A stretch of DNA of 28,996 bases, taken from contig PUNI01000286.1 in the NCBI GenBank assembly GCA_003551745.1, positions 1 to 28,996 on the forward strand, given 5' to 3'. The position numbers and the translations under genes are program-made. This document shows positions 3,904-28,996 of the stretch, piece by piece. Under the pieces are notes generated by a model that worked only from the letters and a program-made list of their open reading frames with translations, did not search any database and was not told the origin of the DNA. Origin of the DNA: Paracoccaceae bacterium. GTDB taxonomy: Bacteria > Pseudomonadota > Alphaproteobacteria > Rhodobacterales > Rhodobacteraceae. The stretch's first letter is position 1. Each line of letters begins with the position of its first letter.

Positions 3904-4790
3904 GCGCGGCCGGCGCACTCCGCGGCGCAGCCGGAAACCCCACGCTGGGAGTGGTGACGATCTGCTTCAACGAGCAAGCCGACCTGCCCGGCTTTCTCGA
4001 CCATCTGCTGCCCTGGGTGGACGAGATCGTCATCGTGGACGACGGCTCGACCGACCGCACTGCCGAGATCGCCCGGTCCGCCGGCCCCCACGTGCGGTTC
4101 CTGGCCAACCCGCGTGCGCCGGGCGAGTTCTTCAGCCACCAGCGCAACAAGGGCATCGCCGCGGCGCGCAGCGACTGGCTGCTGCACATGGACGTCGATG
4201 AACGGGTGCCGCCGGCACTGGCCCGCGAGATCCGCGCCGCCCTTCCCGATGCCGGCAAGGACGGCTATCGCTACCGCCGGTTGAACCACTTCCTGCACCG
4301 CCCGATGCGCGGCGGCGGCTGGCAGGACTGGAACCTCGTCCACCTGGCCCGCCGGGACAAGCTGCGCTTCGGCGGCATGTTCCACGAAAGCTGCGAGCTC
4401 GATGCGCCGGAAGCCCGCGTCGGGCAGCTCGCGGAACGGATGCTGCATTTCAACGAGGCGGATTTCGAGAAACGGCTGCGCAAGAGTGCGCAGTATCTGG
4501 AGGAAACCGTCAGCCGCGTCGAGGCGCGGGCGCGCCCGGTCACCGCTCTCGACATCCTTGCCCGTCCGGCGGTGGAATTCCTGCGCAAGTTCCTGCTCAA
4601 GGCAGGCTTCCGCGACGGCACGCCTGGGCTGATCGCGGCGATCCACGCGGCCACGGCCGTCTTCCGGGCCCATGCCGTCGTCTGGGACCGGCAGAACGCG
4701 ATCCCGCGATCCGCGCTGGAGGCCGAGGTCGCGCGCCAGTGGCAGCGCGAGACCGGCGCGGCCGGGGAAAAGGCCGCGGGGAGCGGCTGA
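3900..4790 (+). CDS. Glycosyltransferase family 2 (WaaE/KdtX-like)
   Basis: This 296-residue protein has a GT-A fold. VVTICFNEQADL (residues 18-29), VDDGSTDRT (46-54), the QRNKGI segment (81-86) and the metal-binding D-x-D at 98-100 within HMDVDER are the classic GT2 order. The order TICFNE, then WVDEIVIVDDGSTDRT, then QRNKGI resembles the WaaE/KdtX group of core or EPS glucosyltransferases. The C-terminal part has basic, amphipathic segments (EFLRKFLLKAGFRDG) that could touch the membrane. ATG 3900 overlaps the sulfotransferase stop in an ATGA arrangement, which fixes the start and implies coupled translation. Sugar specificity is unknown. Confidence 0.92.
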   Translation: MSAAGALRGAAGNPTLGVVTICFNEQADLPGFLDHLLPWVDEIVIVDDGSTDRTAEIARSAGPHVRFLANPRAPGEFFSHQRNKGIAAARSDWLLHMDVDERVPPALAREIRAALPDAGKDGYRYRRLNHFLHRPMRGGGWQDWNLVHLARRDKLRFGGMFHESCELDAPEARVGQLAERMLHFNEADFEKRLRKSAQYLEETVSRVEARARPVTALDILARPAVEFLRKFLLKAGFRDGTPGLIAAIHAATAVFRAHAVVWDRQNAIPRSALEAEVARQWQRETGAAGEKAAGSG

Positions 4791-4793
4791 GCG

Positions 4794-5957
4794 ATGCCCC
4801 ATGTGCTCTTTCACCGGCCCACGGTCTGGCGTTCCGAGGTCGAATGCTCGACGAAGGTGCTGGCGCGTCTCTTCGGCGCGTTCGGCGCGGAGGTGAGCTA
4901 TCTTCAGGCGCCGCTCGATCCGGTGCACCTGCTGCGCGGGACGCAGGGGTATCTGCGCATCTGGCGGCGCGGGCCGGAACGCGACGGCCCGGTGCGGGTG
5001 CTGACCCCGGCCACGCCGGTGCCGGTGCGCGATCTCTGGCCGCTGAACACGCTGGCCGCGGCGCAGTTGCGCTATGCCGCGGCCTGGCCCGCGCTGGCCC
5101 GGCTCGCCCCCGCGCCCGATCTCGTCTGGACGACCGTTCCCGGCAGCGGGGCCGCCCTGCGCCGTGCCTTTCCCGGCGCGCATCTCGTCTTCCACGTGGT
5201 CGATTACTACCCGGCCTTTCGGGGCTCGGCGGTGCAGCCGCTGGAGCGCAGCGACTATGCCGCCGCCGACAGCATCCTCACCATCGGCGAGACCCTGCGC
5301 GACTATCTGACGGCAGAGCTGGGCGTGCCGGCGCGCAAGGTGGCGGTGCTCGGGCAGGGGGTCTCGCTGGAGCGCTATGCCGCGCCGGGCCCGGAGCCGG
5401 AGCCCTTGCGCGCCCTGCCGCGGCCCCGGGCGGTGTGGAGCGGCGTTCTGGCCAAGGGCGATCCGCCGCTGTTCCGCGCGGCGGCCGAAACCCTCGCCGC
5501 GGCCGGCGGCAGCCTCGTTCTGATCGGGCCGCCGGCCGGCTGGGCCACGGCCCTGGCGGACGCGTTTCCGGCGACCGTGCAGCTCCAGGGCCCGGTTCCG
5601 GCCGCGGCGCTGCCCGCCTGGCTGATGCACTGCGATGTCGGGCTGATGCTCTATGACCGCAGGCGGGCCGAGGTCTATCGCGGACAGAACCCGCTGAAGC
5701 TCTACGAGTATGCGGCGGCCGGGCTCGCCATCCTCTCCACCCCGCACGAGGAATACCGCCACCTCGATCCGCCCGTCGCGGTGGTGACCGATGAGGACGC
5801 GACACGCGCCGCCTTGTCCGCGGCTCTCGCCCGCCGCGAGAGCCTGCGCCCCGCGGCGCTGGCCTTCGCGCGCGGGCATTCGTGGCGCGACAAGGCGACG
5901 GCCCTCTTCGAGAGGTTTCTGGCCCAACCCGCGGCGGCTGACGGGGCCACGGCATGA
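4794..5957 (+). CDS. GT-B glycosyltransferase (TuaH/GumK-like)
   Basis: This 387-residue protein lacks a textbook GT4 E-x7-E motif but has a GT-B layout. Its C-terminal half reads VWSGVLAKGDPPL, then LVLIGPP, then a segment ending NPLKLYEYAAAGLAILST (near 300-317). That NPLKxYEYxAAG block is typical of TuaH-like and glucuronosyltransferase-like enzymes in polysaccharide loci. The N-terminal half contains a Rossmann-like strand followed by DLVWTTVPGSG and FHVVDYYPAF. The gene starts 3 bases after the previous stop and overlaps the next by 4. It probably adds one sugar of the repeat unit. The link to GumK or TuaH is by motif only, and the donor could be any nucleotide sugar. Confidence 0.85.
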   Translation: MPHVLFHRPTVWRSEVECSTKVLARLFGAFGAEVSYLQAPLDPVHLLRGTQGYLRIWRRGPERDGPVRVLTPATPVPVRDLWPLNTLAAAQLRYAAAWPALARLAPAPDLVWTTVPGSGAALRRAFPGAHLVFHVVDYYPAFRGSAVQPLERSDYAAADSILTIGETLRDYLTAELGVPARKVAVLGQGVSLERYAAPGPEPEPLRALPRPRAVWSGVLAKGDPPLFRAAAETLAAAGGSLVLIGPPAGWATALADAFPATVQLQGPVPAAALPAWLMHCDVGLMLYDRRRAEVYRGQNPLKLYEYAAAGLAILSTPHEEYRHLDPPVAVVTDEDATRAALSAALARRESLRPAALAFARGHSWRDKATALFERFLAQPAAADGATA

Positions 5958-7099
5958 GCGCCGGGCCACTCTCGGTTGCCCTCTTCTCCAACCAGTTTCC
6001 CGACCCGGCCGGGCATGGGCTCAAACGCTATGCGCGCGAGCTTTTCGGCGAGCTTGTCCGGCGTGACGGGCTCACGGTCACCCCGGTCGCTGCCTGGAGC
6101 GGCATGTCCGCCGCCGATCTCGCCCGCCTGAAGGACGACACCGACTTGCGGCTGGTGCCGCTCGGCCGCCGGCTGACCCCGCTGGTCTGGAGCTTTCTCG
6201 ACGCCGCGCCGCTGGAGCGCTGGCTGCCGGAACGGACGGATGTGGTGCATGCCACCGCCCTGGGGTATCCCGTCGCCACCCGGCGCCCCTTCGTGGTCAC
6301 GATCCACGATCTCGGCCCGCTGACCCATCCCGGCTTCTTCCGCAACAGTCGCCCCTGGGTGATGGCCCGCGCGCTGGCCCAGGCCGTGCGCCAGGCCGCT
6401 GCGGTGATCTGCGTCTCCCGCGCCACCGCCGAGGAGGTGCGCACGCATGTGGGCCCGGCGATCGAGGGGCGGCTGCGGGTCGTGCGGGAAGGCGTGGCGC
6501 CGCGCTTCTTCGAGGCCCCCGACTCGGCCTGTCTGGAGGGCCTGCCGCTGCCGCCGGGCGAGGTGCCCTTCCTGCTGGCCGCGGGCCGGATCAGCCCGCG
6601 CAAGAACATCCAGGGCATCCTGTCCGCGCTGGCCCTGCTGGCGCGCGACCTGCCGCACCATCTTGTGCTGACCGGGGCAAGCGGCTGGGACATGGAGGTT
6701 CTGGCACCCGCGCTTGCCAACCCCAGGCTGGAAGGGCGCGTGCATTTCCTGGGCCATGTCACGGATACGCAGCTGCGGGCGCTCTACGGCCGGGCGGCGG
6801 TCTATCTGCACCCCTCGCTCTACGAGGGCTTCGGCCTGACGGTGCTGGAGGCGATGGCGGCAGGCGCGCCCGTCATCACCTCGGACCGCTCCTCGCTGCC
6901 GGAGGTGGCGGGCACGGCCGGCCGGCTCGTCGATCCGGAGGATCCCGAGGCGCTGGCGGCGTCGATCCGCGAGATCTGCACCGATCCCGCGCTCGCCGCC
7001 CGGATGTCGGCGGCCGGCCGGCGGCATGCCGCGGGCTTTTGCTGGGCCGACTGCGCGCGGGCGGTGCACGAAATCTATCGCGAGGTGGCCCATGGCTGA
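5954..7099 (+). CDS. Glycosyltransferase family 4
   Basis: This 381-residue GT-B enzyme begins with [19 protein letters not shown], a usual GT4 N-terminus with a Gly loop. It continues with [17 protein letters not shown], then the C-terminal donor domain [11 protein letters not shown] (residues about 211-221) and the E-x7-E motif EGFGLTVLE, followed by [19 protein letters not shown]. It closely follows mannosyltransferase-type GT4 proteins such as WbaZ-like enzymes. The start overlaps the previous stop (ATGA), and the stop overlaps the following epimerase gene by 8 bases, so it is embedded in the operon. The linkage formed is not determinable here. Confidence 0.93.
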
Positions 7100-14936: not shown

Positions 14937-16559
14937 TCAGCCCGGCGCGGTGACGCGCCGGGCGAGCACCCCGGTCAGCCAGTCCGGGTCCATCTCGGGC
15001 ACCGACGACAGCAGCAGTTCGGTATAGGGGTGGTGCGGCGGCGCGAAGACCTGCCGCTTCGGGCCCCGCTCCACCACCCGGCCCTGCCGCATCACCACCA
15101 CCTCGTCCGCGATCGCCCGCACCGTGGCGAGGTCGTGGGTGATGAACATGTAGGCGAGCCCCAGTTCGCCCTGCAGGCGGTCGAGCAGCTTAAGGATCCC
15201 CTCCTGCACGATCTGGTCGAGCGCCGAGGTGACCTCGTCGCAGATCACCACCGTGGGCTCGGCGGCCAGCGCCCGGGCGATGCCGACACGCTGTTTCTGT
15301 CCGCCGGAGAGTTCGCCGGGCAACCGGTCGATATAGACGTCGGGCTCCATCTCGATCATGCGCAGAAGCTCACGGACGCGCTCGCGCAGCGCGCGGCCGC
15401 GCAGGCCCAGATACATCTGCGCCGGCCGTCCGATCTGCTCGCGCAGCGGCAGCTTCGGGTTCAGCGCGGTGTCGGCCATCTGATAGATCATCTGCACCCG
15501 GCGCAGCTCGTCGCGGCTGCGGCGCCGGTAGTCCGGCGGCAGCGCCTGCCCCTCCAGTCGCACCTCGCCAGCGGTGGGCGGCAGGAGCCCGGTGATCACC
15601 CGCGCCACGGTGGACTTGCCCGAGCCGCTCTCGCCCACCACCGCAACGGTGCGGCTGGGGGGAATGTCGAAGCGCACATCGCTGAGCACTTCGACGCTGC
15701 CGTAGCTGGCGCTGACCCCCGCCACCGACAGGACCGGCGTGCCCTCCACCGGCGGTCGCTCGGGCCGTTCGAGGCTGCGCACCGCCCACAGCGTGCGGGT
15801 ATAGTCCTGCTTCGGATGCGCGAGCATCATTCGGGTGTCGGCCTCCTCCACCTCGTCGCCCCGGAGCAGAACCTTGATGCGGTCAGCCATCTGGGCGACG
15901 ACGGCGAGGTCATGGGTGATGTAGATCGCCGCGGTGTCGAACTGGGCGACGATATCGCGGATCGCCGCCAGCACCTCGATCTGGGTGGTCACGTCGAGTG
16001 CCGTGGTGGGCTCGTCGAAGACGATCAGATCCGGTCGGCACGCCATGGCCATCGCGGTCATCGCGCGCTGCAACTGGCCGCCAGACACCTGATGGGGATA
16101 GCGGAAGCCGATCTCCCCGGGGTTCGGCAGCTGCATGCGCCGATAGAGCTCCACCGCATCGTGCTCGGCCTGCGCGCGGCGCATCACGCCGTGGACGACG
16201 GGCGCTTCCACATACTGCTCCATCAGCCGGTGCGCCGGGTTGAAGCTCGCCGCCGCCGATTGCGCGACATAGGCGATGCGCTTGCCGCGCAGGCCGCGGC
16301 GCGTTGCTTCCGAGGCGCGCACCAGATCGATCCCGTCGAAGGTGATCGCGCCGCCCGCGATCCGGCAGCCGTCACGCACGAAGCCCATGGCGGCGAGGCC
16401 GAGGGTGGACTTGCCGGCACCCGACTCCCCGATCAGCCCGAGCACCTCGCCCCTGTGCAGGGTCAGGTCGACCCCGTTGATGATGGGCAGCCAGGCATCA
16501 TCGCCCGAGCGGCCCTCGATCCGCACGTCGCGCATCTCCAGGAGCACGGGCTTGGCCAT
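14937..16559 (-). CDS. Fused double ATPase of a Dpp/Opp-type ABC importer
   Basis: A 540-residue protein made of two complete ABC nucleotide-binding domains, equivalent to DppD and DppF joined. Domain 1 has Walker A GESGAGKS (44-51), signature VSGGQLQR (158-165) and Walker B LIVFDE (178-183). Domain 2 has Walker A GESGSGKS (309-316), signature LSGGQKQR (417-424) and Walker B VVICDE (437-442). Each is followed by an H-loop ITHDLA. The C-terminal [12 protein letters not shown] is the usual tail of oligopeptide/dipeptide ATPases. It powers import of the ligand caught by the binding protein of the same operon. Last gene of the operon, 4 bases after the second permease gene; its stop is 6 bases from the convergent Blh-like gene. 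Confidence 0.93.
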
Positions 16560-16563
16560 CGCG

Positions 16564-17496
16564 TCAGTCCTTCAGCCCCGAGGCGCGGTAGAGCTGCCAA
16601 TCGACCACGAAATTGATCGCGACCGTCAGGAGGGCGATGGCGCCGGCCGGCAACAGCGGGGTGATGTCGCCGAAGGTGATCAGCGTGGCATTCTCGCGCA
16701 CCATCGAGCCCCAGTCGGCGGTGGGGGGCTGGATGCCGAGGCCGAGGAACGAGAGCGCCGAGATCGCGAGGAAGACGAAACAGAACCGCAGCCCGAACTC
16801 GGCCACCAGCGGCGCCATGGCATTGGGAAGGATCTCGCGGAACACCAGCCGCACCATGCCCTCGCCGCGCAGGCGGGCGGCCTCGATGAAATCCATCACC
16901 ACGATCCCCTGCGCCACGGAGCGCGCGATGCGATAGACCCGCGTGGCGTCGATCACCGCGATCACCAGGATCAGGGTCACGATCGAGGTGCCGAAGATCG
17001 TCAGCAACAACAGCGCGAAGATCAGCGAGGGGATCGCCATGAACACATCGACGATGCGGCTCATGCCCTGATCGATCCAGCCGCCGAGGATAGCGGCCAG
17101 AAGGCCCAGCGCGGTGCCCAGCAGGAAGGCGAGCAGGGTGGTGGCGAGCGCGATGCCCACCGTGTTGCGCGCGCCGTAGATCATGCGCGAGGCCATGTCG
17201 CGCCCGAGGTTGTCGGTGCCGAGCCAGTGCGCCTCGCTCCAGGGCAGGAACTGCGCACCCACCACCGCGCGCTCGCCATAGGGTGCGAGGAGCGGCGCGA
17301 AGACCGCGACGAACAGGTAGATCAGGATCACCAGCATCCCGAAGCTGGCGGTCAGCGGGGCGCCGCGCAGGCTGCGGCGAAGCTCCCCCCGCGTGACCAG
17401 CACGAGCCCGGCGCGGAACAGCCATCCCGCCGCGGCCGCGCCGGCGACGAAACCCGCGATCAGCAGAAGCCAGCCGAGGGGTCCGAACGCGTCCAT
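16564..17496 (-). CDS. ABC importer permease, DppC-like
   Basis: This 310-residue membrane protein of the binding-protein-dependent transport family has LGTDNLGRDMASRMIYGAR, the standard DppC/OppC entry motif. The EAA loop, EAARLRGEGMVRLVFREILP, contacts the ATPase. The N-terminus carries an additional hydrophobic segment (about residues 8-26, LLLIAGFVAGAAAAGWLF) ahead of the usual first helix (SFGMLVILIYLFVAVFAPLL), so it probably has one helix more than the usual six. It pairs with the DppB-like permease, separated by a single base, to form the inner-membrane channel. Substrate class is peptide or a similar small solute by family; the specific ligand is unknown. Confidence 0.92.
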   Translation of the reverse strand: MDAFGPLGWLLLIAGFVAGAAAAGWLFRAGLVLVTRGELRRSLRGAPLTASFGMLVILIYLFVAVFAPLLAPYGERAVVGAQFLPWSEAHWLGTDNLGRDMASRMIYGARNTVGIALATTLLAFLLGTALGLLAAILGGWIDQGMSRIVDVFMAIPSLIFALLLLTIFGTSIVTLILVIAVIDATRVYRIARSVAQGIVVMDFIEAARLRGEGMVRLVFREILPNAMAPLVAEFGLRFCFVFLAISALSFLGLGIQPPTADWGSMVRENATLITFGDITPLLPAGAIALLTVAINFVVDWQLYRASGLKD

Positions 17497-17497
17497 C

Positions 17498-18523
17498 TCA
17501 GCGCGGATAGAGCAGCCGCGGGTTCGACAGCGTCGAGATCACGTCGGCGGCAAGGTTCAGCAGCACATAGGCGGCGGCGAAGATCAGGGCCACGGCCTGC
17601 ACCACGGGGATGTCGCGCCGCGCCACGCTGTCGACCATCAGCTGGCCGAGGCCGGGATAGACGAACACCACCTCGACCACCACCACGCCGGTGATGAGAT
17701 AGGCCATGTTGATCGCCACCACATTGGCGATCGGCGCGATGGCGTTGGGCAGGGCATGGCGCAGGATCACCCGCATCGGCGACATGCCCTTGAGCCGCGC
17801 CATCTCGATATAGGGCGAGGCCAGCAGGTTGATGATCGCCGCGCGCGTCATCCGCATCATGTGGGCGGTGACCACCAGCGTCAGGGTCAGCGCCGGAAGG
17901 AAGGCGCGGTAGAGCCGCTCGCCGAGGTCCGCTCCCGCCGGCACCCGCGCCATCGACGGGAAATACCCCGACTGCGCCAGCAGGAAGATCAGGATGTAGG
18001 CCACGAAGAACTCGGGAAAGGAGATCGCGCCGAGCGCGGCGGAGTTCGAAGCGCGGTCGAAGACCGAGTTGCGCCACAGCGCGGCAAGGATTCCGAGGAT
18101 CAGGGCCAGCGGCACCGCCATCGCCGCGGCATAGCCGGCGAGAAACAGGGTGTTCCCCAGCCGGTTGCCGATCATGTCGGCGACCGGGCGGTTGCCGCTG
18201 GCCAGCGACCGGCCGAAATCGCCCTGCAGCACGCCGCCGAGCCAGTCGAAGTAGCGAACCGGGGCCGGCTGGTCGAGGCCGAGCTCGCGGCGGATCGCGG
18301 CCACGGTCTCGGGCGTGGCCGCCTGCCCCAGCACCGCTTCGGCGAAGTCGCCGGGCAGAAGCTCGGTCGCCCCGAAGATCAGCAGCGAGACCACGAACAG
18401 GGTCAGCAAGCCGAGTGCCAGCCGCTGGCCAACCATGATCCAGACATGCGCGATGCCCGGCCGGCCCTTCGGTGTCCCCGGCGCTGGCGTCGGCGCCGGG
18501 GGCGTGTCGACTACGCGAACCAC
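17498..18523 (-). CDS. ABC importer permease, DppB-like
   Basis: This 341-residue DppB/OppB-type permease has a first helix at about residues 32-52 (QRLALGLLTLFVVSLLIFGA). A periplasmic segment ATPETVAAIRRELGLDQP follows, which is the conserved DppB pattern. The EAA loop reads EMARLKGMSPMRVILRHALP, and FVYPGLGQLMVDSV is a family marker near the C-terminus. The N-terminal 25 residues are Pro-rich and non-membrane. The start is taken as GTG 18523, which overlaps the binding-protein stop by 13 bases; no clear ribosome site is seen, so translation is probably coupled. An internal ATG at 18436 would remove the Pro-rich part but start inside the first helix region. Confidence 0.9.
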   Translation of the reverse strand: MVRVVDTPPAPTPAPGTPKGRPGIAHVWIMVGQRLALGLLTLFVVSLLIFGATELLPGDFAEAVLGQAATPETVAAIRRELGLDQPAPVRYFDWLGGVLQGDFGRSLASGNRPVADMIGNRLGNTLFLAGYAAAMAVPLALILGILAALWRNSVFDRASNSAALGAISFPEFFVAYILIFLLAQSGYFPSMARVPAGADLGERLYRAFLPALTLTLVVTAHMMRMTRAAIINLLASPYIEMARLKGMSPMRVILRHALPNAIAPIANVVAINMAYLITGVVVVEVVFVYPGLGQLMVDSVARRDIPVVQAVALIFAAAYVLLNLAADVISTLSNPRLLYPR

Positions 18524-20076
18524 CAGCGCTCGGGCGCGCGGAAGCCGTCCATCGTCCAGTTCGCGCCGATCTCGTCGGGTGTCGCCACCGCATCCGACAC
18601 CGCCATCACGTAATTCGCGAACATCGGGATCACCGTGGAGCCCTCGTCGCGGACGATGCGCTGCATCTCCTCATACATCTCGCGCCGCCGTTCCTCGTCG
18701 AGTTCCGAGCGCGCGGCGACCAGAAGCTCGTTGAAGCGCTCATGCTCCCAGAAGCCGTCGTTCCACGGCGCGCCCGCGGCATAGCCGGTGGAGAACATCC
18801 AGTCCTCGGTCGGTCGGCCGCCCCAGTAGGAGGCGACGAACGGCTTCACCATCCAGACGTTCGACCAGTAGCCGTCGGAGGGCTCGCGCACCACGTCGAT
18901 GGTGATCCCGGCCTGTGCCGCCGTTTCCGCGAACAGCACCGCGGCATCGACCGCGCCGCCGAAGGCCGCGTCGGAGGCCGAAAGGCTCACGCGCAGTTCG
19001 TCGAGCCCGGCCTCGCGCAGATGGTGGCGCGCGCGCTCCGGGTCGAACTCGCGCTGCTCGAGCTCATCGGCGTGGAAACGGTTCGAGCGCCCGATCGGAT
19101 GGTCGTTGCCCGGCACCCCGAAGCCCGAGAGGATCTTGTCGACCATGTCCTGCCGGTCGACGGCGTATTTCAGCGCGAGACGGACATTGTTGTCGGTGAA
19201 GGGATCCGCCCGGCTGTCCATCACGAAGGTGTAGTGCTGGGTGCCGGGCACCGAGATGATGCGGATGCCCGCCCGCTCCAGAAGATGCACGGTGCTGGTG
19301 TCGACCCGGTCGATCACGTCGACCTCGCCCGTGATCAGCGCGTTCTGGCGGGCGGCGGCGTCGATGATCGGCATCAGGACGAGCCCGTCGAAATGCGCCC
19401 GGTGCGTCTTCCAGTAATCGGGGTTGCGGGTCAGCCGCGCCTCGACCCCCGGCTCGAAATGGTCGAGCACGTAGCCGCCGCAGCCGTCGGCAGAGGTCGG
19501 GTCGATGCGCCCGTCGCTGCTGGGCATGATCGGCAGGTGATAGTCGGACATGATGAAGGGGAAGTCGGCGTTGCCGGCCTCCAGCGTGAAGATCACCGTG
19601 TTGCCGTCGACGCGGATGTCGGTGATCGCCTCGACGATCGGTTTCGCCGCCGAGGTGCTGTCCTCGCCGCGGTGATAGTCGATAGAGGCGGCGACGTCCT
19701 CGGCGGTGACGGTCTTGCCCGAATGGAAGGTCACGCCGTCGCGGATCACGAAGGTCCATTCGGTGGCGTCGGACGACGGCTCCCAGCTCTCGGCGATCTC
19801 GGGGATCAGGCTGCCGTCGGTGTCGATCTCGGTGAGGTAGTTGTGGATCGCGCTCGACAGCACCTGGACATAGGCATTGTCCCAGGTCGCGGGGTCGAGG
19901 CTGTCGCCGGTGTTGCCGTGGCCCATGGCCACGCGCAGGATGCCGCCGCGCCGCGGCTCGGCGGCCGCCGCCCGCATGCCCGCGGGCAGGATCAGGCCCG
20001 AGGCCGCCACGGCCGAGGCCCCCTGCAGCAGCGTCCGGCGCGTCACGCCGCCGGCGCGGTTCAGTCGGTGGAGCAT
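18511..20076 (-). CDS. ABC importer substrate-binding protein, family 5 (DppA/OppA type)
   Basis: This 521-residue periplasmic binding protein has a twin-arginine-like leader: TRRTLLQGASAVAASG then an AAAA end (near residue 39). It is followed by GGILRVAMGHG and ATWDNAYVQVLS, the family-5 opening. The core has WTFVIRDGVTFHSGKTVTAEDV, NPDYWKTHRAHFDG, and NNVRLALKYAVDRQDMV, all standard SBP_bac_5 blocks. It would capture a peptide or other small solute and deliver it to the permeases encoded next. ATG 20076 is set by GGGAGGG at 20081-20087. The frame stays open far upstream without a better start. It is first in a four-gene operon. A Tat leader suggests export in folded form. Ligand unknown. 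Confidence 0.92.
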   Translation of the reverse strand: MLHRLNRAGGVTRRTLLQGASAVAASGLILPAGMRAAAAEPRRGGILRVAMGHGNTGDSLDPATWDNAYVQVLSSAIHNYLTEIDTDGSLIPEIAESWEPSSDATEWTFVIRDGVTFHSGKTVTAEDVAASIDYHRGEDSTSAAKPIVEAITDIRVDGNTVIFTLEAGNADFPFIMSDYHLPIMPSSDGRIDPTSADGCGGYVLDHFEPGVEARLTRNPDYWKTHRAHFDGLVLMPIIDAAARQNALITGEVDVIDRVDTSTVHLLERAGIRIISVPGTQHYTFVMDSRADPFTDNNVRLALKYAVDRQDMVDKILSGFGVPGNDHPIGRSNRFHADELEQREFDPERARHHLREAGLDELRVSLSASDAAFGGAVDAAVLFAETAAQAGITIDVVREPSDGYWSNVWMVKPFVASYWGGRPTEDWMFSTGYAAGAPWNDGFWEHERFNELLVAARSELDEERRREMYEEMQRIVRDEGSTVIPMFANYVMAVSDAVATPDEIGANWTMDGFRAPERWWFA

Positions 20077-20151
20077 CTTTCCCTCCCGGTTTTCTTTCCA
20101 TGCGCCACGCCGGGCCGGCGCGGCCTTTGCAGACGGCGAAGCGGGGGCAGG

Positions 20152-20173
20152 GTTCTGGCCGCGTTCTGGCCGC
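20152..20173 (+). repeat. Perfect tandem duplication of an 11-base unit
   Basis: GTTCTGGCCGC occurs twice, end to end, in the 261-base divergent space between the binding-protein gene and the phosphohexomutase gene. The same space (20077-20337) holds an inverted repeat CAGTC-CCCC-GACTG (20204-20217) and a TTGACA (20276-20281) without a good -10 partner. No firm promoter can be called. Confidence 0.5.
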
Positions 20174-20322
20174 CGCCCCGCAGGCCGGCCGATCCTTGCG
20201 AAACAGTCCCCCGACTGCGCCAAGATTACAAGTCGTTTAGGAGCCGCAGATGGCAGCCCGATGACAGCGCCCGCCTTGACAGTCGCGACCGGCCGGCCGC
20301 AAGCAGGGCGGCAGCCGCGCCC

Positions 20323-20328
20323 GGGAGG
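20323..20328 (+). promoter_or_regulatory. Ribosome binding site that decides a TTG start
   Basis: GGGAGG ends 9 bases before TTG 20338. It sets the phosphohexomutase start in a frame that would otherwise remain open for more than 1.8 kb upstream. Confidence 0.65.
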
Positions 20329-20337
20329 CCCGCCCCC

Positions 20338-21711
20338 TTGACCCCGCTCACCTGCTTCAAGGCCTACGACATTCGCGGCCGGCTGGGCGAAGAGCTCGAT
20401 GCCGGCATCGCCCGGCGGATCGGCCGGGCCTTCGCGGAGGTTCTGGGCGCCCGCCGGGTCGTTCTGGGCCGCGACTGCCGCGCCTCGTCGGAGGAGTTGA
20501 TGGCGGCAACGGCCGAGGGGCTGATGGCCGCCGGTGTCGAGGTCCTCGATCTCGGACTGTCCGGGACGGAGGAGATGTATGCGGCCACCGCAGATCTCGG
20601 AGCCTGCGGCGGCATCACCGTCACCGCCTCGCACAACCCGATGGACTACAACGGCATGAAGATGGTGCGGGCCGGGGCAGCGCCGCTCGATGCGGCAAGC
20701 GGCCTCGCCGCAATCCGGGCCCTCGCCGAAAGCGGCGATTTCGCCGCGCCCCGGCCCGGCGGGCGGATCGTGCCGGCCGCTGGCGCGCGCGACACCTATG
20801 TGGCGCGGGTGCTTTCCTTCGTCGATCCGGCCGCGATGACGCCGCTCCGGATCCTGGTGAATGCCGGCAACGGCGCGGCCGGACCGACCTTCTATGCGCT
20901 GGCACAGGCGTTATCGGAGGCCGGCGCGCCGCTGAGGTTCGAGCGGCTGCACCACACCCCCGACGGCCGCTTCCCCAACGGCATCCCCAACCCGCTCCTG
21001 CCCGAGAACCAGCCGGTCACCGGCGCGGCGGTGCGGGCGGCCGGCGCTGACATGGGCGTGGCCTGGGACGGCGACTTCGACCGCTGCTTTCTCTTCGATC
21101 ACGAGGGGCGCTTCATCCCGGGCGAGTATATCGTCGGGCTTCTCGCCGAGGCGTTCCTGGTCAAGGAGCCCGGCGCCACCATCCTGCACGATCCGCGCGT
21201 GATCTGGAACACGCAGGATGTGGTGGCCCAGGCAGGCGGCCGCGCGGTGGCGGTGCGGACCGGCCACGCCTTTCTCAAGCAGGCCTTGCGCGAGACCGGC
21301 GCCGTCTATGGCGGCGAGATGTCGGCCCACCATTATTTCCGCGATTTCCATTGCTGCGACTCGGGCATGATCCCATGGCTGCTGGTGGCCGAACTGGTCT
21401 CGCGCCGGGGCCGGCCGCTGGCCGATCTCGTCGGCGACCGGATCGCACGGTTTCCGTCGTCGGGGGAGATCAACTTCCGCGTCGACGACGCCGCGGCGAC
21501 GGTCGCCCGCGTCCGCGCGGCGCTGGAGCCCGAAGCCACCGCGATGGACGAGATCGACGGGCTGAGCCTGGCCTTCGACGGCTGGCGCTTCAACCTGCGC
21601 GCCTCGAACACCGAGCCGCTGCTGCGGCTGAATGTCGAGGCCCGCGGCGACGCCGGCATGGTGGCGCGCGGGGCGGAGCGGGTGCAGGCGCTGGTCGCCC
21701 GGCGCGCGTAA
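20338..21711 (+). CDS. Phosphomannomutase/phosphoglucomutase (AlgC/ManB type)
   Basis: This 457-residue alpha-D-phosphohexomutase begins TPLTCFKAYDIRG, the usual family N-terminus. The phosphorylated catalytic Ser is Ser98 in TASHNPMDYNGMK. The magnesium loop is DGDFDR (244-249). The sugar-binding loop is GEMSAHHYF (326-334), the form seen in enzymes that accept both mannose- and glucose-phosphates. The C-terminal phosphate site is RASNTEPLLRLN. It interconverts hexose 6- and 1-phosphates for nucleotide-sugar synthesis, and so may feed the glycan operon at 3-10011, though about 10 kb away. All four domains are present at normal length. It stands alone between the divergent ABC operon and the protease operon. 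Confidence 0.95.
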   Translation: MTPLTCFKAYDIRGRLGEELDAGIARRIGRAFAEVLGARRVVLGRDCRASSEELMAATAEGLMAAGVEVLDLGLSGTEEMYAATADLGACGGITVTASHNPMDYNGMKMVRAGAAPLDAASGLAAIRALAESGDFAAPRPGGRIVPAAGARDTYVARVLSFVDPAAMTPLRILVNAGNGAAGPTFYALAQALSEAGAPLRFERLHHTPDGRFPNGIPNPLLPENQPVTGAAVRAAGADMGVAWDGDFDRCFLFDHEGRFIPGEYIVGLLAEAFLVKEPGATILHDPRVIWNTQDVVAQAGGRAVAVRTGHAFLKQALRETGAVYGGEMSAHHYFRDFHCCDSGMIPWLLVAELVSRRGRPLADLVGDRIARFPSSGEINFRVDDAAATVARVRAALEPEATAMDEIDGLSLAFDGWRFNLRASNTEPLLRLNVEARGDAGMVARGAERVQALVARRA

Positions 21712-21819: not shown

Positions 21820-24591
21820 ATGAGCCTGGAGATCCTGAAGGCTGCCGCCAGCATCGCGCCGCCGGAACCGGTCGAGGGGTTTCCGCCCGACCTGCTGCGC
21901 ATCACGCTGGAATACCCCGAGGCCCCCGACCCGGCCGTCGAGCGCGCGCGCCTTGTCGCGCTCCTGGAGGGCGAGGGGTTCTCGCTGACCGTGCTCGATG
22001 AGGATCTGCCCGAGTTCCTGGTCCTGCAGTTTCCAGAGGTGGAACGCAGGCAGGCGCCCGATACGCTCTTCGCCGCGGCCGATGCGCTGGTCGACGCGCT
22101 CGGTCTGGTCTCGGCGGTGCCCGACATCCCGAGCACCTTCGTGGTCGCGCCCGACGATCCCGACCGGCTGGAATCCGTGGGCGAGCGGATCCTCGACCAG
22201 ACCTGCTGGGTGGAGGAGCGCGATCATGGCCGGCTGTGGCAGATCGAGAAGATCCGCGCCCTGCCGGCCTGGTCGAAGAGCAAGGGCAAGGGCGTCCTGA
22301 TCGCGCAGCCGGATACAGGCGTTGCCTCCCATGCCGAGCTGGCCGAGGCGCTGGACCTCGCGAGCGGCTTCAACACGCTCACCGGCACCAGCGATCCGAC
22401 CGACCCGCTGCACCCGGGGATGGGCAACCCGGGCCATGGCACCGCTACCGCCAGCGCCGTCGCCGCCCGCGGGGTGTCGATGGTGATGGGCGCGGCCCCC
22501 GAGGCCAAAGTGGCGCCGATCCGCTGCATCGACCGTGTGGTTCTGGGCGTGAGCCCGACACCGGTGGCCAAGGCGATCCTGCACGCCGTGCAGGCCAAGG
22601 CCGATGTGATCTCCATGAGCCTCGGCGGCGGGCTCTATTCCCCGGCGATGGCGCGGGCCATGCAGCACGCGGTGCGCCAGGGCCTGATCATCGTCGCCGC
22701 CGGCGGCAACTGCGTGCAGCCGATCGTCGTCTTCCCGGCCAATGACCGCAACGCGATCGCGCTCGGCGGCAGCAACATCGACGATGCGCCATGGAAGGGC
22801 AGCAGCCGCGGACGCCGGATCGACGTCTGCGCCCCGGCCGAGAATGTGCGGGTCGCCCGCCGCAATCCCGGCGATCCCGACGAGACACTGGTGAAACCGA
22901 GCCAGGGCACCTCCTTCGCCACCGCGCTCACCGCCGGCGTGGCCGCGCTGTGGATCGCCCATCACGGGCGCGACGCGGTGCGCGCCGAGGCCCGGCGTCG
23001 CGGCACCACCGTCAACGAACTTTTCCGCCACGCGCTTCGGTCCAGCGCGCGCAAGCCGACGCCGGACTGGGACGAACGCCGCTTCGGGGCAGGCATCGTG
23101 GATGCCGCGGCGCTTCTAGATCTCGATCTGGCCCGCATCCCCGCCGGCAGCGGCCTCGAAGACGCCGGCCCTGCGGCGGACCTGCCCGAGGAGGATCTGG
23201 TCGCCGCGCTGGAGGAGGCGTTCGAGGGCATCGAGACCCATGCCGGGGACTGGCCGCGGCTGGGCGCCGAGGGCGTGTTCCTGCTTCACGACGCGTGGCT
23301 GCGGCTGAACCGGCCCGGCGCGATCCCTCTGGAAAGCCCGGCGCAACCTCGGGCCAGTGCCGGGATGCGGGCGCGCATGCCCGCGGCCGTGGCCCGCGGC
23401 CTCGCGGCGCTGCGTGCCGAACCCGAGGTGCTGCCGCCGGCCGGCGCACCGGCAGGCACCGTCTCCCACGTGAGGATGCTCGCCGCCCGCGGCGCCCAGG
23501 GCCCGGAATCCAGCGCCGCGCTCAGCCTCGAGGCCGCGCGGGAGCGGCTGCGCAACGGCGGCAAGGAGCGGCTGGTGCAGCTTGCCGACAAGGCGCTCTC
23601 GGCCATCGGCAGGCGCGCTGCCGACGGCGGCGAGGAGCGGGGCCTGGTGATGCGTGCGGCACCGGAGGTCATCGACAAGGCGGCCGCGGGTGAGCTGGAT
23701 AGCCTCGATGCCGCCGGCCGGATCACCCTGGAGGCCCTGATCCGGATCAACGACCGCCCAGCCTATCGCGTCGTCGATGGCAGCATCGACCCAGAGGATC
23801 CGCTCTACGGCGAATGGGGCGGGTTCCTCGCGCTTCTGGTGGGGCTGGAGCGCTGGACGGCCGCGGTGTGCCGGGTGAACCTCGACGGCCGCCATTTGGG
23901 CAGCGGCTTTCTGTGCGCGCCGGGCCGGGTGATGACCAACCGGCATGTGCTGGAGGCCTGCGCCGACGAGGTGGCGCTGAAGGGCGAGGGCCGCTGGTTC
24001 TTCACCCGCGGGGCGGTGACGGTGGATTTCTCCGACGGCGCCGACGGCAGCCGCGGCGCCGAGGTAACCGGCGTGGCCCAGGCCGGGCCGCTGCCGATCG
24101 GCGGGCTCGAGCGGCTCGACCACCTCGACATGGCGGTGCTGGAGATCGACCCTGCGCAGGTGCCGGAGGGCGCCGCGCCGCTGGCCTTCACCCGGAGCCT
24201 CGATGGCGACGCCGATCTGATGGTGATCGGCTTTCCGGCGCGTCCGGGCACGGCAGCGATGGTCGATCCGGCCACCGGCCTCGTCAACCGCGAGATGGCC
24301 GAGCGGCTGCGGGTGATCTTCGGCACCGACTACGGCCGCAAATACGTCAGCCCCGGCCATATGATGGCGCCGACCGGCACGCTGGCCGCCGACCGGCACG
24401 GCTGGGTCTTCACCCATGACAGCACCACGCTCGGCGGCAATTCGGGCTCGGTGGTGGTGCAGCTGGGCGGCACGCCGGCGGTGGCGGGCCTGCACTTCAG
24501 CGGCGCGCCGCTGACATCGAACCGGGCCCATGCGCTGGGTGCGGTGGATGCGAGCTTCGCCGGGCCGATCCGGGGGCCGGGCTGGATCTGA
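21820..24591 (+). CDS. Double protease: subtilisin (S8) domain fused to trypsin-like (S1) domain
   Basis: A 923-residue protein without signal peptide or membrane segment, so probably cytosolic. Residues 1-145 form an acidic N-terminal region that could be a propeptide-like or sensing domain. The S8 domain (about 155-435) has the full triad: Asp165 in PDTG, His206 in GHGT, Ser365 in GTSFA, plus the oxyanion Asn297 in AAGGN. A helical, Ala/Arg-rich linker (about 445-660) follows. The C-terminal trypsin-like domain (about 675-915) also has a full triad: His709 in TNRHV, Asp770 in LDMAVL, Ser875 in GNSGS. Two complete serine protease centres on one chain is rare. GGGAGGG directly before ATG 21820 fixes the start. 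The next gene begins 7 bases after the stop. Probable role: effector or activator protease of a conflict system. Confidence 0.9.
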   Translation: MSLEILKAAASIAPPEPVEGFPPDLLRITLEYPEAPDPAVERARLVALLEGEGFSLTVLDEDLPEFLVLQFPEVERRQAPDTLFAAADALVDALGLVSAVPDIPSTFVVAPDDPDRLESVGERILDQTCWVEERDHGRLWQIEKIRALPAWSKSKGKGVLIAQPDTGVASHAELAEALDLASGFNTLTGTSDPTDPLHPGMGNPGHGTATASAVAARGVSMVMGAAPEAKVAPIRCIDRVVLGVSPTPVAKAILHAVQAKADVISMSLGGGLYSPAMARAMQHAVRQGLIIVAAGGNCVQPIVVFPANDRNAIALGGSNIDDAPWKGSSRGRRIDVCAPAENVRVARRNPGDPDETLVKPSQGTSFATALTAGVAALWIAHHGRDAVRAEARRRGTTVNELFRHALRSSARKPTPDWDERRFGAGIVDAAALLDLDLARIPAGSGLEDAGPAADLPEEDLVAALEEAFEGIETHAGDWPRLGAEGVFLLHDAWLRLNRPGAIPLESPAQPRASAGMRARMPAAVARGLAALRAEPEVLPPAGAPAGTVSHVRMLAARGAQGPESSAALSLEAARERLRNGGKERLVQLADKALSAIGRRAADGGEERGLVMRAAPEVIDKAAAGELDSLDAAGRITLEALIRINDRPAYRVVDGSIDPEDPLYGEWGGFLALLVGLERWTAAVCRVNLDGRHLGSGFLCAPGRVMTNRHVLEACADEVALKGEGRWFFTRGAVTVDFSDGADGSRGAEVTGVAQAGPLPIGGLERLDHLDMAVLEIDPAQVPEGAAPLAFTRSLDGDADLMVIGFPARPGTAAMVDPATGLVNREMAERLRVIFGTDYGRKYVSPGHMMAPTGTLAADRHGWVFTHDSTTLGGNSGSVVVQLGGTPAVAGLHFSGAPLTSNRAHALGAVDASFAGPIRGPGWI

Positions 24592-24598
24592 AAGCGGC

Positions 24599-26434
24599 AT
24601 GGCCGGGATCGACAACCGCCAGATCGCCCATCTCGCCGCAGGGCTGAAGATCGCCCGCGGCGTCTTCGCCGATGCCTATGACATCTTCGCCATGGCCTAC
24701 GACACGCGGCTCTTCCGCCAGATCGCCATGGAGGCCGACGAGGAAAAGGCGATGGCGCCCGGACCGGCGCGCGACCGGCGCGACTTTAACGCCGCCCTGC
24801 GCGCAGCCCGCGACGCCGGCTGGCTGGTCGAGTTCCTGATCGATCGCTTCGCGGATCTCTCGGCCGCAGGCGACGCCCCGGCGCGGGTGGAGCTGCAGGC
24901 GATCGCCCAGCGCAACCAGCCCTTCGTGGAGGCCGGCGACGTCACGGCGCGCACGCTGATGGCGGCGCGCCGCTGCTGCCAGATCCTTGCGACCGAGGTG
25001 GGGGCCGCCGGCGACCGGCAGGAACGGGCCATCGGCTCGGGTTTTCTCGTCGGCGCCAATGTGGTGTTGACCAACCACCATGTGGTGGCGGAGCTCCAGG
25101 CGTCGGGCGGCCCGCCGCCGCTGCTGCGCTTCGATCATCACGCCGGCCCGCGCGGCATGGCGCTGGCCGAGACGCTGCGCTGTCCCGACGACTGGCTGAT
25201 CGATCACGCGCCTGCGGCCGAGGGCGATGCGGTGACGGCGGACCGGCTCGACTATGCGCTGATCCGGGTCGACGGCCTGCCCGGCCATGCCCGGGGCTGG
25301 TACGACATCACCCTGGCGCCGCCGCCGCCGGAGATCGGCCTCGGGCTGGAGATCTGGCAGTTTCCGCGCGGCCAGCCGATGCGCGTGGCGGGCGGCACCC
25401 GGCATGCCGCCCCGGCGGGCGACGCCGCCGACATGCCCGAGCGGATCTATTACGATGCGAACACGCTGCGCGGGTCGTCGGGCGGGCTCGTGCTCGGCGC
25501 CGACCGGGTGCCGGTGGCGCTGCATGAAGCCGGTTACGAGGACGCGACGCAGACGCTCAACCGCGGCATTCCGCTGCATCTGATCGCCGCCCGGGCCGGC
25601 GGCCATCTGGCGCAGGAAGCCGCCAACCTACAGCCGAAGATCGGCTGGAACGCGAACCGGGCCTTCCCGATCCTCGGCCGGGCAAAGCTGCAGCGGCTGA
25701 TCTTCGAGGCGCAATCCGGCCGGCCGCGCCTGATCGTCGTCGCCACCCGCCCCGATCCCGCCACCGAGCAGCGGATCCCACGGCTCGGGCGCAGCTTCAC
25801 GCGCCTCGTCCTCGAGGCCTGCCTGCCCGACGACGCCCATCATGTGGTGGACTTCAACGCCGCGCTGATCGACCCGGACGCCCACCTGACGGCCGCCCGC
25901 CTGCTGAGCATGCTGGGCACGTCCGGTCCGGAGCCGACGGCGACGGATGACGGGCCTTTCGACGCCGAGGCCACCGGGCGCCTCGTCGATGCCACGCTGG
26001 CCGCCCTGCGCGCCGCCGCGCCGGGCAAGACGGTCTGGCTGATGATCGACGATCTCGACGCCCACCCCATCGGCACCCAATGGGCGGCCAGCAGCTATCT
26101 GCTCGCGCTCTACCGCCGGGCCGCCGACGACGACCGTCTGCGCATCGTTCTGGCCGGCTTGTCGCGACCGCTAGAGGCCCTGCGGGACATGGAGCAGGAC
26201 GGGCTGATCGGCTTCGAGACCCTCGACGCCCCGCCCAGCGACACCGACCTCGGCTTCTGGATCGAGGCGCATCTCTTCCCCGCCGCCCTGCCGGCCGACC
26301 TGGCGCCGCGCATGGCCCGGTTCGTCCGCTCTGTCGCGCAGCCCGCCACCCGCTCCGGGCGCGTCTGCCTGACCGAGGCAACGGCGCTGGTGCTGCGCGA
26401 TCACGCCCGCGGCGCCTTCCGGGCACAGGCGTGA
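24599..26434 (+). CDS. Helical adaptor + trypsin-like protease + STAND-like domain lacking a P-loop
   Basis: 611 residues with no signal peptide. Residues 1-90 are helical, with FNAALRAARDAGWLVEFL near the end; the size and pattern resemble the effector-associated (EAD) adaptor domains that join effectors to STAND NTPases, but I cannot assign a specific one. A trypsin-like domain (about 125-335) has His161 in TNHHV, Asp218 in LDYAL and Ser294 in GSSGG. From about 353 a STAND-like region begins with FPILGR. At the place of the Walker A loop (about 372-388) there is no GxxxxGK[ST]. A Walker-B-like strand VWLMIDDLD (479-487) and a following arginine-bearing strand (RIVLAGLSRP) remain. I therefore read it as an inactive STAND partner. 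Start ATG 24599, 7 bases after the previous stop; its stop overlaps the next ATG by one base. Confidence 0.82.
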   Translation: MAGIDNRQIAHLAAGLKIARGVFADAYDIFAMAYDTRLFRQIAMEADEEKAMAPGPARDRRDFNAALRAARDAGWLVEFLIDRFADLSAAGDAPARVELQAIAQRNQPFVEAGDVTARTLMAARRCCQILATEVGAAGDRQERAIGSGFLVGANVVLTNHHVVAELQASGGPPPLLRFDHHAGPRGMALAETLRCPDDWLIDHAPAAEGDAVTADRLDYALIRVDGLPGHARGWYDITLAPPPPEIGLGLEIWQFPRGQPMRVAGGTRHAAPAGDAADMPERIYYDANTLRGSSGGLVLGADRVPVALHEAGYEDATQTLNRGIPLHLIAARAGGHLAQEAANLQPKIGWNANRAFPILGRAKLQRLIFEAQSGRPRLIVVATRPDPATEQRIPRLGRSFTRLVLEACLPDDAHHVVDFNAALIDPDAHLTAARLLSMLGTSGPEPTATDDGPFDAEATGRLVDATLAALRAAAPGKTVWLMIDDLDAHPIGTQWAASSYLLALYRRAADDDRLRIVLAGLSRPLEALRDMEQDGLIGFETLDAPPSDTDLGFWIEAHLFPAALPADLAPRMARFVRSVAQPATRSGRVCLTEATALVLRDHARGAFRAQA

Positions 26435-28996
26435 TGCCCGAGGGCTTCATCCGCCGGGTGATCGAGCACGCGGCCCTGTCGGGCGCATTCGTGCCCGCAC
26501 GGTTCCGCTATTTCACGCCGGCCGAACGCCGGCCGCGGCCTGAAGAGACAGACGCGGAACGGGACGCGCGGCTCGCGGCGCTCTGGAGCCTGGCGCTGCG
26601 GCGGCTGGCGCCGCTCTGCATCGAGCGCGCGACCGGGCGGCAGCTGCGCTGGGTGATGCGCAACCCGGAGCGGTCGGAAGTGCTGCGCCGGCTCGTGTCG
26701 AACCCGGCGGATCTCGCCGCGCGCTGGCGCCGCCGGCCGCCGCTGCGCGACGACGCCTTCGGCCAGGCCCTGCGCCTGTGCCTCGGCGATGGCCCGCTGG
26801 ACGGCATTGCATTCGAAGCGGACTCCCGCCGCCCCGCCCTCGCGGCGGCGGTCTTCGCGCTGCCGCTCGTCGATGCAGGCCGCCGGCCGGCCATCCAGGC
26901 CTTCGAGGCCGCGCTGCATCGGGCCGCCGTTGCCGAGGACGCCGACACCCGCCAGCAGGCCGCGCTGCCCGACAGGTTCGTGGGCCGGCAGGCCGAGCGC
27001 GCCGCGGTCCTAGCCTTTCTCGAAGACGGCAGCCTCCACCCGCCAGCCGTCAGCGGCGCACACCCCGAAGAACCTGTCACCGCGCGCCTGCTGCTGACCG
27101 GGTCGGAGGGTATCGGCAAGACCGCGTTCCTCGCCGACCTGGGCACCCATCTGCCCGAGATCGTCGCCGCAGCGCCGACCTGGCTCGTCCGGCTCGATTT
27201 CGATGCGGCCACGCTGGCGCGCGGCGGCGTCGTGGGCTGGACGGAGGAGGTCAGCCGGCAGATCGCCGCGCAGGATGGCAGCATCGCGCAGCGGCTGTCG
27301 GATCTGCGCAGCCGACAGGCCCGCCACCGCCGCGAGGCCGGCTGGGACGATCCCGAGACCGCCGCGCATCTGCTGATGGGCGCGATCAACAGGCTGCTCG
27401 CGACCCGTCCGCGGCGGCGCCTGCTGATCCTGGCCGAGCATGCCGAGGCCCTGATCGCGCAGGATGATCCGCTGCGCTTCGACCTCGCGCCCGCCGACAG
27501 CCTGCTGCACCGCTTCCTGCGCTGGACCGACGAGCTCGCCGCCGGGCTGGCGGCGACCTCCAGCCGCGCACTGATCGCCGCCGCCGCGCCGCCGCCGGTT
27601 GAGGAGGCCGTAGCGGAGCGCTGGTTCACCGGCCGGCTGGCGCTCGGTGCGCTCGACGCGGCCGCCGCGGCCGATCTGGTTCGCATGCGGGCCCCGGATC
27701 TTGCCGATCTTGCCGAGCGCATGGTTGCCACGGCGGGCGGCCATCCGCGCTGCCTGTTCCTGCTGGCGGACAGGCTCGCCGGTCTCGATCCCGACGCCCG
27801 GCCGTCCCTCCTCGATGCCCTCGCCGCGGAGCGGTTGCCCGCGCTCGACCCACCGAGGGCACTGGCGCGGATGACCACCCGCTTTCTCGCGCAGCTTCCG
27901 GCACGCGACCTGCCTGCGGGCCTAACGGAGGCGGAGTTCCGGCGTCTCGCCCGAGCGGCGCTGGTTCTGCCGGAGGTGACGCCGGAACTCATCGCCGATG
28001 TGGTCGGCCCCGCCCTCGGCCTGCGCCTTCAACGCACCACCGGAGCCACGCGGGCGCTGAGGGGTCTCGCCCGCGAGGCCTGGCTCTGGCAGCCGGCGGA
28101 CCGACCGCTGACCTTCCGGCCCGATGAGGTCCTGAGGCAGGCGGTCCTGCCCGGCCTCGCTGCCGACGATGGCGACGGCGCGGCGGTGCTCGCCCGGGCC
28201 GCCGCCTGGCATGAGGCGCGGGGCAGCGACGACGACACCGCCGCAGCGCTGGTCTACCGTGCGCTCCTCGGCGACATCCCTGCGCTGCGCGACCGGCCAC
28301 AGGACGCCGCACGCGCCCTCACGCAGGCGGGAAGCGACGTCGCCGCGATGCCACCCGCGGCGCGGGCCATTCTGAAGCTGCGCGCGCCGGGAGGCAGGAC
28401 CCTGGGCGCTGACGAGCTGGCCGCCCTTCCGGAGCATCTGCGCGCGGAGGCCGAGCTGGCGCGGCAGGGTCAGGCAATCCGGGATTTCGGCGGCGCGCTG
28501 CCCGCCGAAGAAGGTGCGGCATGGAATCCGGCCGGCAGCAGTCCCGCCGCACCAGCCCTCCAACCGCTCGAGACCTGCGACGCCTACCGCATTCTCAACG
28601 ACACCCGGCTCGACGCGGCGGTGGCGGTGGCCTTTCTGCGGGCCGATTTCGAGGCAGCGGCGGCGACCGGTCTGGCCGCGCTGGCGCAGGTCCGAAGATG
28701 GCCCGACCTGCACCGTCCCTTCGGCCTGCGTCATGCCTTCGAGAAGAGCTGGCTGTGGCGCACGGCCCTCGCCGCGCTCTGCGCGCCCGAAACGGCCGCG
28801 ACCGTGCGCCTGCCGGGCCTCTCGGAGGCAATTGCCGGCGCGCATGAGGCCGAGCGACCGCCCCCGTCGCCCGGAGCCGCGGTCTTCCAGCTTGAGGCGC
28901 TGCTCGCCATGGCGAGGGCGCCCGGCGACATGCCGTCCCAAGCTGAGTTCGAGGGTTCACCGCTGCTCACCGACGGCATCGGGGATTTCGCGGCGC
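26434..28996 (+). CDS. STAND-type P-loop NTPase, partial (3' end outside window)
   Basis: Open from ATG 26434 to the right edge without a stop (854 codons seen). Residues 1-175 are a basic, mostly helical domain I do not recognise. The STAND core starts with FVGR (182-185), followed by Walker A GSEGIGKT (223-230). At the Walker B position the strand LLILAEHAE (330-338) has Ala334-Glu335 where Asp-Asp/Glu is usual, so hydrolysis may be slow or altered. ALGALDAAAAADLVR and the GGHP motif (435-438) followed by a Leu-rich helix match the helical and winged-helix parts of STAND proteins. After about 600 the chain is Ala/Leu/Arg-rich and helical, perhaps superstructure-forming repeats that sense a signal. 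The ATG shares one base with the previous stop, so translation is coupled. Likely the NTP-dependent switch for the two protease proteins upstream. Confidence 0.85.
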   Translation, partial: MPEGFIRRVIEHAALSGAFVPARFRYFTPAERRPRPEETDAERDARLAALWSLALRRLAPLCIERATGRQLRWVMRNPERSEVLRRLVSNPADLAARWRRRPPLRDDAFGQALRLCLGDGPLDGIAFEADSRRPALAAAVFALPLVDAGRRPAIQAFEAALHRAAVAEDADTRQQAALPDRFVGRQAERAAVLAFLEDGSLHPPAVSGAHPEEPVTARLLLTGSEGIGKTAFLADLGTHLPEIVAAAPTWLVRLDFDAATLARGGVVGWTEEVSRQIAAQDGSIAQRLSDLRSRQARHRREAGWDDPETAAHLLMGAINRLLATRPRRRLLILAEHAEALIAQDDPLRFDLAPADSLLHRFLRWTDELAAGLAATSSRALIAAAAPPPVEEAVAERWFTGRLALGALDAAAAADLVRMRAPDLADLAERMVATAGGHPRCLFLLADRLAGLDPDARPSLLDALAAERLPALDPPRALARMTTRFLAQLPARDLPAGLTEAEFRRLARAALVLPEVTPELIADVVGPALGLRLQRTTGATRALRGLAREAWLWQPADRPLTFRPDEVLRQAVLPGLAADDGDGAAVLARAAAWHEARGSDDDTAAALVYRALLGDIPALRDRPQDAARALTQAGSDVAAMPPAARAILKLRAPGGRTLGADELAALPEHLRAEAELARQGQAIRDFGGALPAEEGAAWNPAGSSPAAPALQPLETCDAYRILNDTRLDAAVAVAFLRADFEAAAATGLAALAQVRRWPDLHRPFGLRHAFEKSWLWRTALAALCAPETAATVRLPGLSEAIAGAHEAERPPPSPGAAVFQLEALLAMARAPGDMPSQAEFEGSPLLTDGIGDFAA

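Follow-up and report, generated by a model that had tools for sequence, protein, structure and literature searches.

Phage infection of Lysobacter triggers the proteolytic activation of gasdermin, relayed by a CARD protein and an NLR-like protein, and other CARD-NLR variants have a phospholipase or an endonuclease as output (PMC13236601). LypABC of Caulobacter crescentus is required for lysis mediated by a gene transfer agent (GTA) (Banks et al. 2026, PMC13236601). The peptidase activities of LypA and LypC are both needed for this and the LypC nuclease is dispensable, and the CARD of LypA has been shown in Caulobacter to bind the N-terminal domain of LypB; the authors state that the route from CARD-NLR to cell death is unknown and propose a further lytic effector downstream, its identity not known (PMC13236601). 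'System 3' of Kaur et al. 2020 is a trypsin-NucA system, mostly of alphaproteobacteria and sometimes with S8 and trypsin proteases flanking NucA, that includes a STAND protein with trypsin and a Death-like domain, bDLD2 (PMC7159879). We describe here a three-gene operon in a 28,996-nucleotide stretch of DNA (the window) from a Paracoccaceae bacterium (GCA_003551745.1, contig PUNI01000286.1) that most probably encodes a CARD-NLR-type (inflammasome-like) immune or programmed-death system.

The three genes are tightly packed, with 7 bases between genes 1 and 2 and a one-base overlap between genes 2 and 3, as had been noted in a reading made from the letters of this stretch (the sequence-only reading). 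Their features are as follows.

21820..24591 (+), gene 1: S8 subtilase and S1 trypsin double protease, 923 amino acids (aa), no nuclease domain
22285..23094 (+), gene 1 S8 domain: residues 156-425, triad D165/H206/S365
23137..23739 (+), gene 1 inter-protease region: about residues 440-640, poorly conserved, with the lowest conservation at residues 451-630
23899..24471 (+), gene 1 S1 domain: residues 694-884, triad H709/D770/S875
24599..26434 (+), gene 2: CARD, trypsin and decayed STAND ATPase, 611 aa, LypA architecture
24599..24913 (+), gene 2 CARD-fold domain: N-terminal residues 1-105, by structural model
25034..25507 (+), gene 2 trypsin domain: residues 146-303, triad H161/D218/S294
25787..25798 (+), gene 2 decayed Walker A: G397-R398-S399-F400
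26036..26059 (+), gene 2 Walker B: W480-D487, WLMIDDLD, kept
26434..28996 (+), gene 3: NLR-like STAND ATPase, LypB architecture; the window holds residues 1-854
27100..27123 (+), gene 3 Walker A: GSEGIGKT, residues 223-230, intact
27436..27438 (+), gene 3 Walker B acid: Glu335, Asp in relatives

Gene 1 matches Pfam Peptidase_S8 (E 2.4e-31) and Trypsin_2 (E 3.6e-11) with both triads intact, which bears out its description as an S8+S1 double protease. All 13 aligned loci, the window counted, keep D165/H206/N297/S365 of S8 and H709/D770/S875 of S1 unchanged. The variable stretch between the two proteases is a candidate site for activating cleavage. No Endonuclease_NS domain was found by Pfam in gene 1, nor in any of the nine scanned relatives with an S8+S1 protein. 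The PADLOC profile PDLC03010, named 'nacht', matches residues 614-908 (window 23659-24543, E 8e-27); the match covers the trypsin end, so a NACHT domain in gene 1 was dropped as a candidate and the name taken as a naming matter.

A maximum likelihood tree was built from 34 S1 domains, a set that leaves LypA and LypC outside. The gene 1 S1 domains and those of trypsin-nuclease proteins fall together and are split from the gene 2 S1 domains at 100/100; the gene 1 group itself is supported at no more than 78/83, and its side also holds three long-branch trypsins whose placement is uncertain. It follows from this split that the two trypsins of the operon belong to old, separate lineages, one LypA-like and the other LypC-like in layout. 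The same pairs recur in both lineages (window/L024, L026/L004, L028/L031 and L044/L062), as expected if the genes travel together.

Gene 2 matches Trypsin_2 (E 4.7e-11), its trypsin resembles HtrA/DegS folds in a fold search, and the triad is retained in 36/36 sequences compared. Because trypsins crowded the fold search with the whole model, the N-terminal domain was modelled alone; its top structural matches are solved domains from Azospirillum and Lysobacter, and by this model the N-terminal adaptor is predicted to be a CARD-type (death-fold) domain. Solved structures searched by sequence gave no CARD. The sequence-only reading had overlooked this domain and thought of an EAD-type adaptor, for which no EAD1 match was reported. 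It had also called gene 2 a trypsin joined to a P-loop-less STAND: the trypsin-STAND stands, while 'P-loop-less' is better put as a decayed P-loop, with an arginine, an insertion and the Walker B motif kept. In the window's clade, arginine replaces the P-loop lysine and the insertion breaks the loop (...LGRSF). Because P0018, L029 and similar relatives of gene 2 still have GxxxxGK[ST], the decay is probably derived. An [ST][FY] pair behind the position of the P-loop lysine is present in 35/36 gene 2 sequences, the exception being P0019. Caulobacter LypA likewise lacks Walker residues, and lysis is lost in its T356A/S360A/F361A mutant (PMC13236601). By analogy, S399/F400 of gene 2 may be the counterpart of LypA S360/F361. 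The decayed ATPase probably still binds nucleotide without turnover.

In gene 3, the intact P-loop claimed earlier is the Walker A motif listed above. LypB function depends on K230 and D335 (PMC13236601). Pfam gives only a sub-threshold AAA_22 match (0.074); relatives of gene 3 match AAA_16, in some above the cut-off. Across 12 S8/S1 loci, the window counted, all gene 3 pairs match, the weakest being the window against L004 (E 0.002-0.009). Compared directly with 14 other gene 3 proteins, the window protein matches 12 at E < 0.01; those that do not match are L035 (E 6) and L029. A single-sequence protein search had no match at E <= 0.001, and a search with a 10-row alignment found only three distant proteins at E <= 1e-5. 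As the direct comparison matches 12/14, GC-rich composition and the candidate limit of the search are the likely causes of these few matches.

The gene 3 frame is still open at the window end, which is also the end of its contig (C27), and is cut there at residue 854. The first 121 bases of contig C358 of the same genome are identical to the C27 end, and the frame runs on to a stop (L041:1-852 on C358), giving a full length by count of 1,097 aa. Pairwise searches match this piece to the C-terminal ends of gene 3 relatives (34% over 119 aa at best, E 4e-11), though a broad gene 3 profile does not. A cobalamin riboswitch (L041:850-1042) lies immediately 3' of the stop, followed by an open reading frame (ORF) whose translation reads like a TonB-dependent receptor. 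The operon therefore comprises three genes and ends with gene 3; reading further to the right, as the sequence-only reading had proposed, adds no member.

Searching from gene 2, the order S8/S1, CARD-trypsin, STAND was found at 14 loci, the window counted (also L024, L025, L026, L027, L028, L030, L031, L004, L042, L043, L044, L045 and L062). Ten of these are in the S1 tree and represent five lineages: window/L024, L026/L045/L004, L028/L031, L042 and L044/L062. The other four are near relatives, L025, L027 and L030 carrying the genus labels of L024, L026 and L031, and L043 resembling L042. Three of the 14 are imperfect. Gene 3 is shortened at L043, on a Sinorhizobium meliloti plasmid, where a 231-aa ORF (L043:9926-10621) follows gene 2; the record edge of L044 falls inside gene 1; and in Ruegeria pomeroyi DSS-3 gene 2 is matched across two frames that overlap (L045:7523-9539), reflecting either a real break or a sequence error.

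The 14 loci come from several sets. Seven of 17 loci inspected in other genomes have the S8/S1 three-gene order; L035 is a trypsin-NucA-S8 version, L029 and L036 have relatives of genes 2 and 3 but no S8, and seven are trypsins whose match to the gene 2 profile is partial, L032 among them adjoining a gene 3 relative. One gene 2 profile match, G017, lies outside this count. Seven of 25 plasmid records were inspected, with the order present in four and absent from three (L046 and L047 with a gene 3 relative). Among six further regions, L062 has the order, L059 combines relatives of genes 2 and 3 with an adjacent trypsin-nuclease gene, and four lack the order.

From the gene 1 side, 13/380 genomes of the order match at E <= 1e-60. 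Eight, including the window's own genome, span nearly the whole profile, and genes 2 and 3 adjoin in 8/8; this sample overlaps the genomes behind the gene 2 loci, so the two counts are dependent. The order is thus conserved from both sides, the result on which the sequence-only reading had staked its proposal. The remaining five matches are to the S8 part only: G140 (= L035) and L078-L081. In the latter four (L078:8295-16851, L079:1250-9868, L080:8074-16729 and L081:8251-16810), a stand-alone S8 gene precedes gene 2 and gene 3 relatives and a trypsin-Endonuclease_NS gene; this four-gene form is likely the split counterpart of the window's fused gene 1. At L035:4008-7799, a single protein carries trypsin, Endonuclease_NS and S8 domains, and downstream of it come another trypsin gene and one relative each of genes 2 and 3. 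Taken as a whole, these loci link S8 to this type of operon in all cases seen, with the nuclease separate, fused or missing.

The gene 2 profile matches 13/394 genomes of the family and 15/390 of the order (E <= 1e-10), and 3/385 of the class and 6/398 of the phylum (E <= 1e-20), own genome counted in each; these samples overlap, and trypsins of other systems account for many of the weaker matches. Within one genus, 2/16 genomes match; the family sample contains a single further genome from the window's genus, and it has no match. A single-sequence scan of genome contigs gave one locus. Among plasmid copies, that of Rhizobium phaseoli has an integrase and an IS110 transposase nearby, that of Sinorhizobium meliloti an IS110 transposase, and that of Ruegeria pomeroyi is on a megaplasmid. 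The Polaromonas plasmid copy (L044) is followed, 21 bases after gene 3, by a separate Endonuclease_NS gene (L044:7376-8311). A search of viral contigs with two short patterns found no relative.

These observations support the sequence-only reading's picture of a nucleotide-controlled conflict-type operon with a sensor STAND and a degenerate STAND-trypsin, and they support a proteolytic cascade as likely. At rest, all parts of the operon would be silent. On infection, gene 3, as the NLR-like STAND, would sense a sign of infection, exchange nucleotide and oligomerise, and its N-terminal domain would recruit gene 2 through the CARD, as the LypA-LypB-like anatomy suggests. Clustering would switch on the gene 2 trypsin, which would cleave gene 1 and thereby activate it; the simplest place for the cut would be the variable stretch that separates S8 from S1. 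The active S8 and S1 domains might then break down essential proteins, or switch on a lytic protein whose gene lies elsewhere, so that the infected cell would die or stall before phage release. The direct support for this scheme here is three protease centres with intact catalytic residues, the gene 3 Walker A motif, the CARD model and the linkage of the genes; CARD-NLR binding and the need for the ATPase and both proteases have been shown for relatives (PMC13236601).

The last step divides the possible explanations. Gene 1 could be the final activator instead of the killer, its S8/S1 protease switching on a lytic or toxic product of some other chromosomal locus, a reading to which we give a sizeable chance, though short of even. 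It fits the essential peptidase and dispensable nuclease of LypC and the downstream lytic effector that those authors propose (PMC13236601), as well as the fungal subtilase HET-Q2, which activates a gasdermin (PMC10989679). An unsystematic look by eye at the ORF lists also made no fourth gene common to all lineages evident. Plasmid copies in different hosts, however, would need an ever-present target, and a separate S8 gene is accompanied by a trypsin-nuclease gene in four loci. We tentatively raise another reading, possible although on the doubtful side, in which the operon is a bacterial inflammasome that kills by proteolysis itself, with a fused subtilase-trypsin and neither pore-former nor nuclease, having arisen by fusion and nuclease loss from an ancestor in which S8 and trypsin-nuclease were separate genes. 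If true, the protease would be the real output, which would account for the dispensability of the LypC nuclease in Caulobacter.

Two explanations would remove the operon from defence altogether. It is improbable that it serves a GTA or prophage as a module for lysis or release, even though LypABC, the nearest relative of known role, is needed for GTA-mediated lysis; the GTA of Rhodobacter capsulatus uses a holin-endolysin (PMC13236601), and the distribution of the operon is patchy and partly plasmid-borne. The window genome, which is 87% complete, has no match to TIGR02217, and the Caulobacter vibrioides control does match. We take TIGR02217 to be a GTA gene. Very little weight falls on a housekeeping or stress-response protease operon serving protein quality control. 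The ordinary metabolic genes upstream and the HtrA/DegS-like fold of the gene 2 trypsin would suit that role, but the operon is rare (full-length S8/S1 gene 1 in 8/380 genomes of the order), it has a CARD-type domain and an NLR-like STAND, and plasmid copies adjoin transposases and an integrase. A CARD-NLR-type immune or programmed-death system thus remains the preferred explanation, and the operon family offers natural variants through which to study it, since the nuclease is separate, fused or absent and the protease centres are kept in every full-length copy aligned. These variants make the question of protease or nuclease as death output directly testable. The arrangement parallels caspase cascades and fungal subtilase-gasdermin pairs.

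Within the window, no defence-island setting of the operon is visible. Eight of ten upstream ORFs have Pfam matches, to glycosyltransferases, O-antigen ligase, transporters and phosphomannomutase, and PADLOC gave nothing at E <= 0.001 for ten upstream ORFs, partly the same set. Positions 505-7099 hold a polysaccharide cluster with glycosyltransferases and an O-antigen-ligase-like protein; two of the upstream glycosyltransferases also match Pfam GT4-conflict, ranked below their general families. Positions 14937-20634 (-) hold an oligopeptide ABC transporter with an ATPase and a family 5 solute-binding protein (Pfam), and the ORFs between these parts read like permeases. The upstream phosphomannomutase has only 29-33% matches in one congener, so no syntenic empty site was available for comparison. 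The iSTAND ternary system (vWA-MoxR-iSTAND) was considered and dropped; the Pfam matches of the ten upstream ORFs include no vWA or MoxR family, the rest of the genome lying outside that search. A bacterial gasdermin operon was also dropped: the gasdermin suggested earlier as a possible target is absent from the three-gene operon, and the rest of the genome was not searched for one.

The sequence-only reading's proposal of a new system is not supported; the anatomy is that of CARD-NLR/LypABC (PMC13236601) and overlaps with 'System 3' (PMC7159879). The protease protein combines a CARD, a trypsin and a divergent ATPase, and the STAND ATPase adjoins it, as in CARD-NLR systems. The operon is a form of the CARD-NLR/'System 3' group without a nuclease. 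Literature on CARD-NLR and subtilases, in which the primary CARD-NLR paper (Wein et al. 2025) was not covered, describes no S8/S1 form among the matches listed, and the words 'subtilisin' and 'subtilase' do not occur in the LypABC paper (PMC13236601). The likeness to LypABC is one of architecture, not of sequence alignment. Gene 2 has the LypA layout (CARD, trypsin and an ATPase without Walker residues), gene 3 the LypB layout (N-terminal domain, STAND ATPase and a long C-terminal region), and the gene 1 trypsin groups with trypsin and Endonuclease_NS proteins, the layout of LypC. Unlike LypABC in the strict sense, the operon has no LypC with trypsin and endonuclease; gene 1 carries a fused S8 subtilase in place of Endonuclease_NS, the S8/S1 gene comes first, and the window genome gives no indication of a role in GTA release. 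Among the CARD_NLR subtypes of DefenseFinder is one that takes its name from subtilase and would cover the S8/S1 form. Like 'System 3', in which S8 also occurs at times, the operon has trypsins and a trypsin-STAND that bears a Death-like domain, bDLD2 there (PMC7159879), but NucA is a core part of that system and is lacking in the window operon and in gene 1; among relatives, the NucA endonuclease is present in L035 and L078-L081 and as a separate gene in L044. With CARD-NLR systems it shares a CARD-bearing protease, an NLR-like ATPase and an output protein at a swappable position, which in the window is a double protease, whereas in the others described it is a gasdermin, a phospholipase or an endonuclease (PMC13236601).
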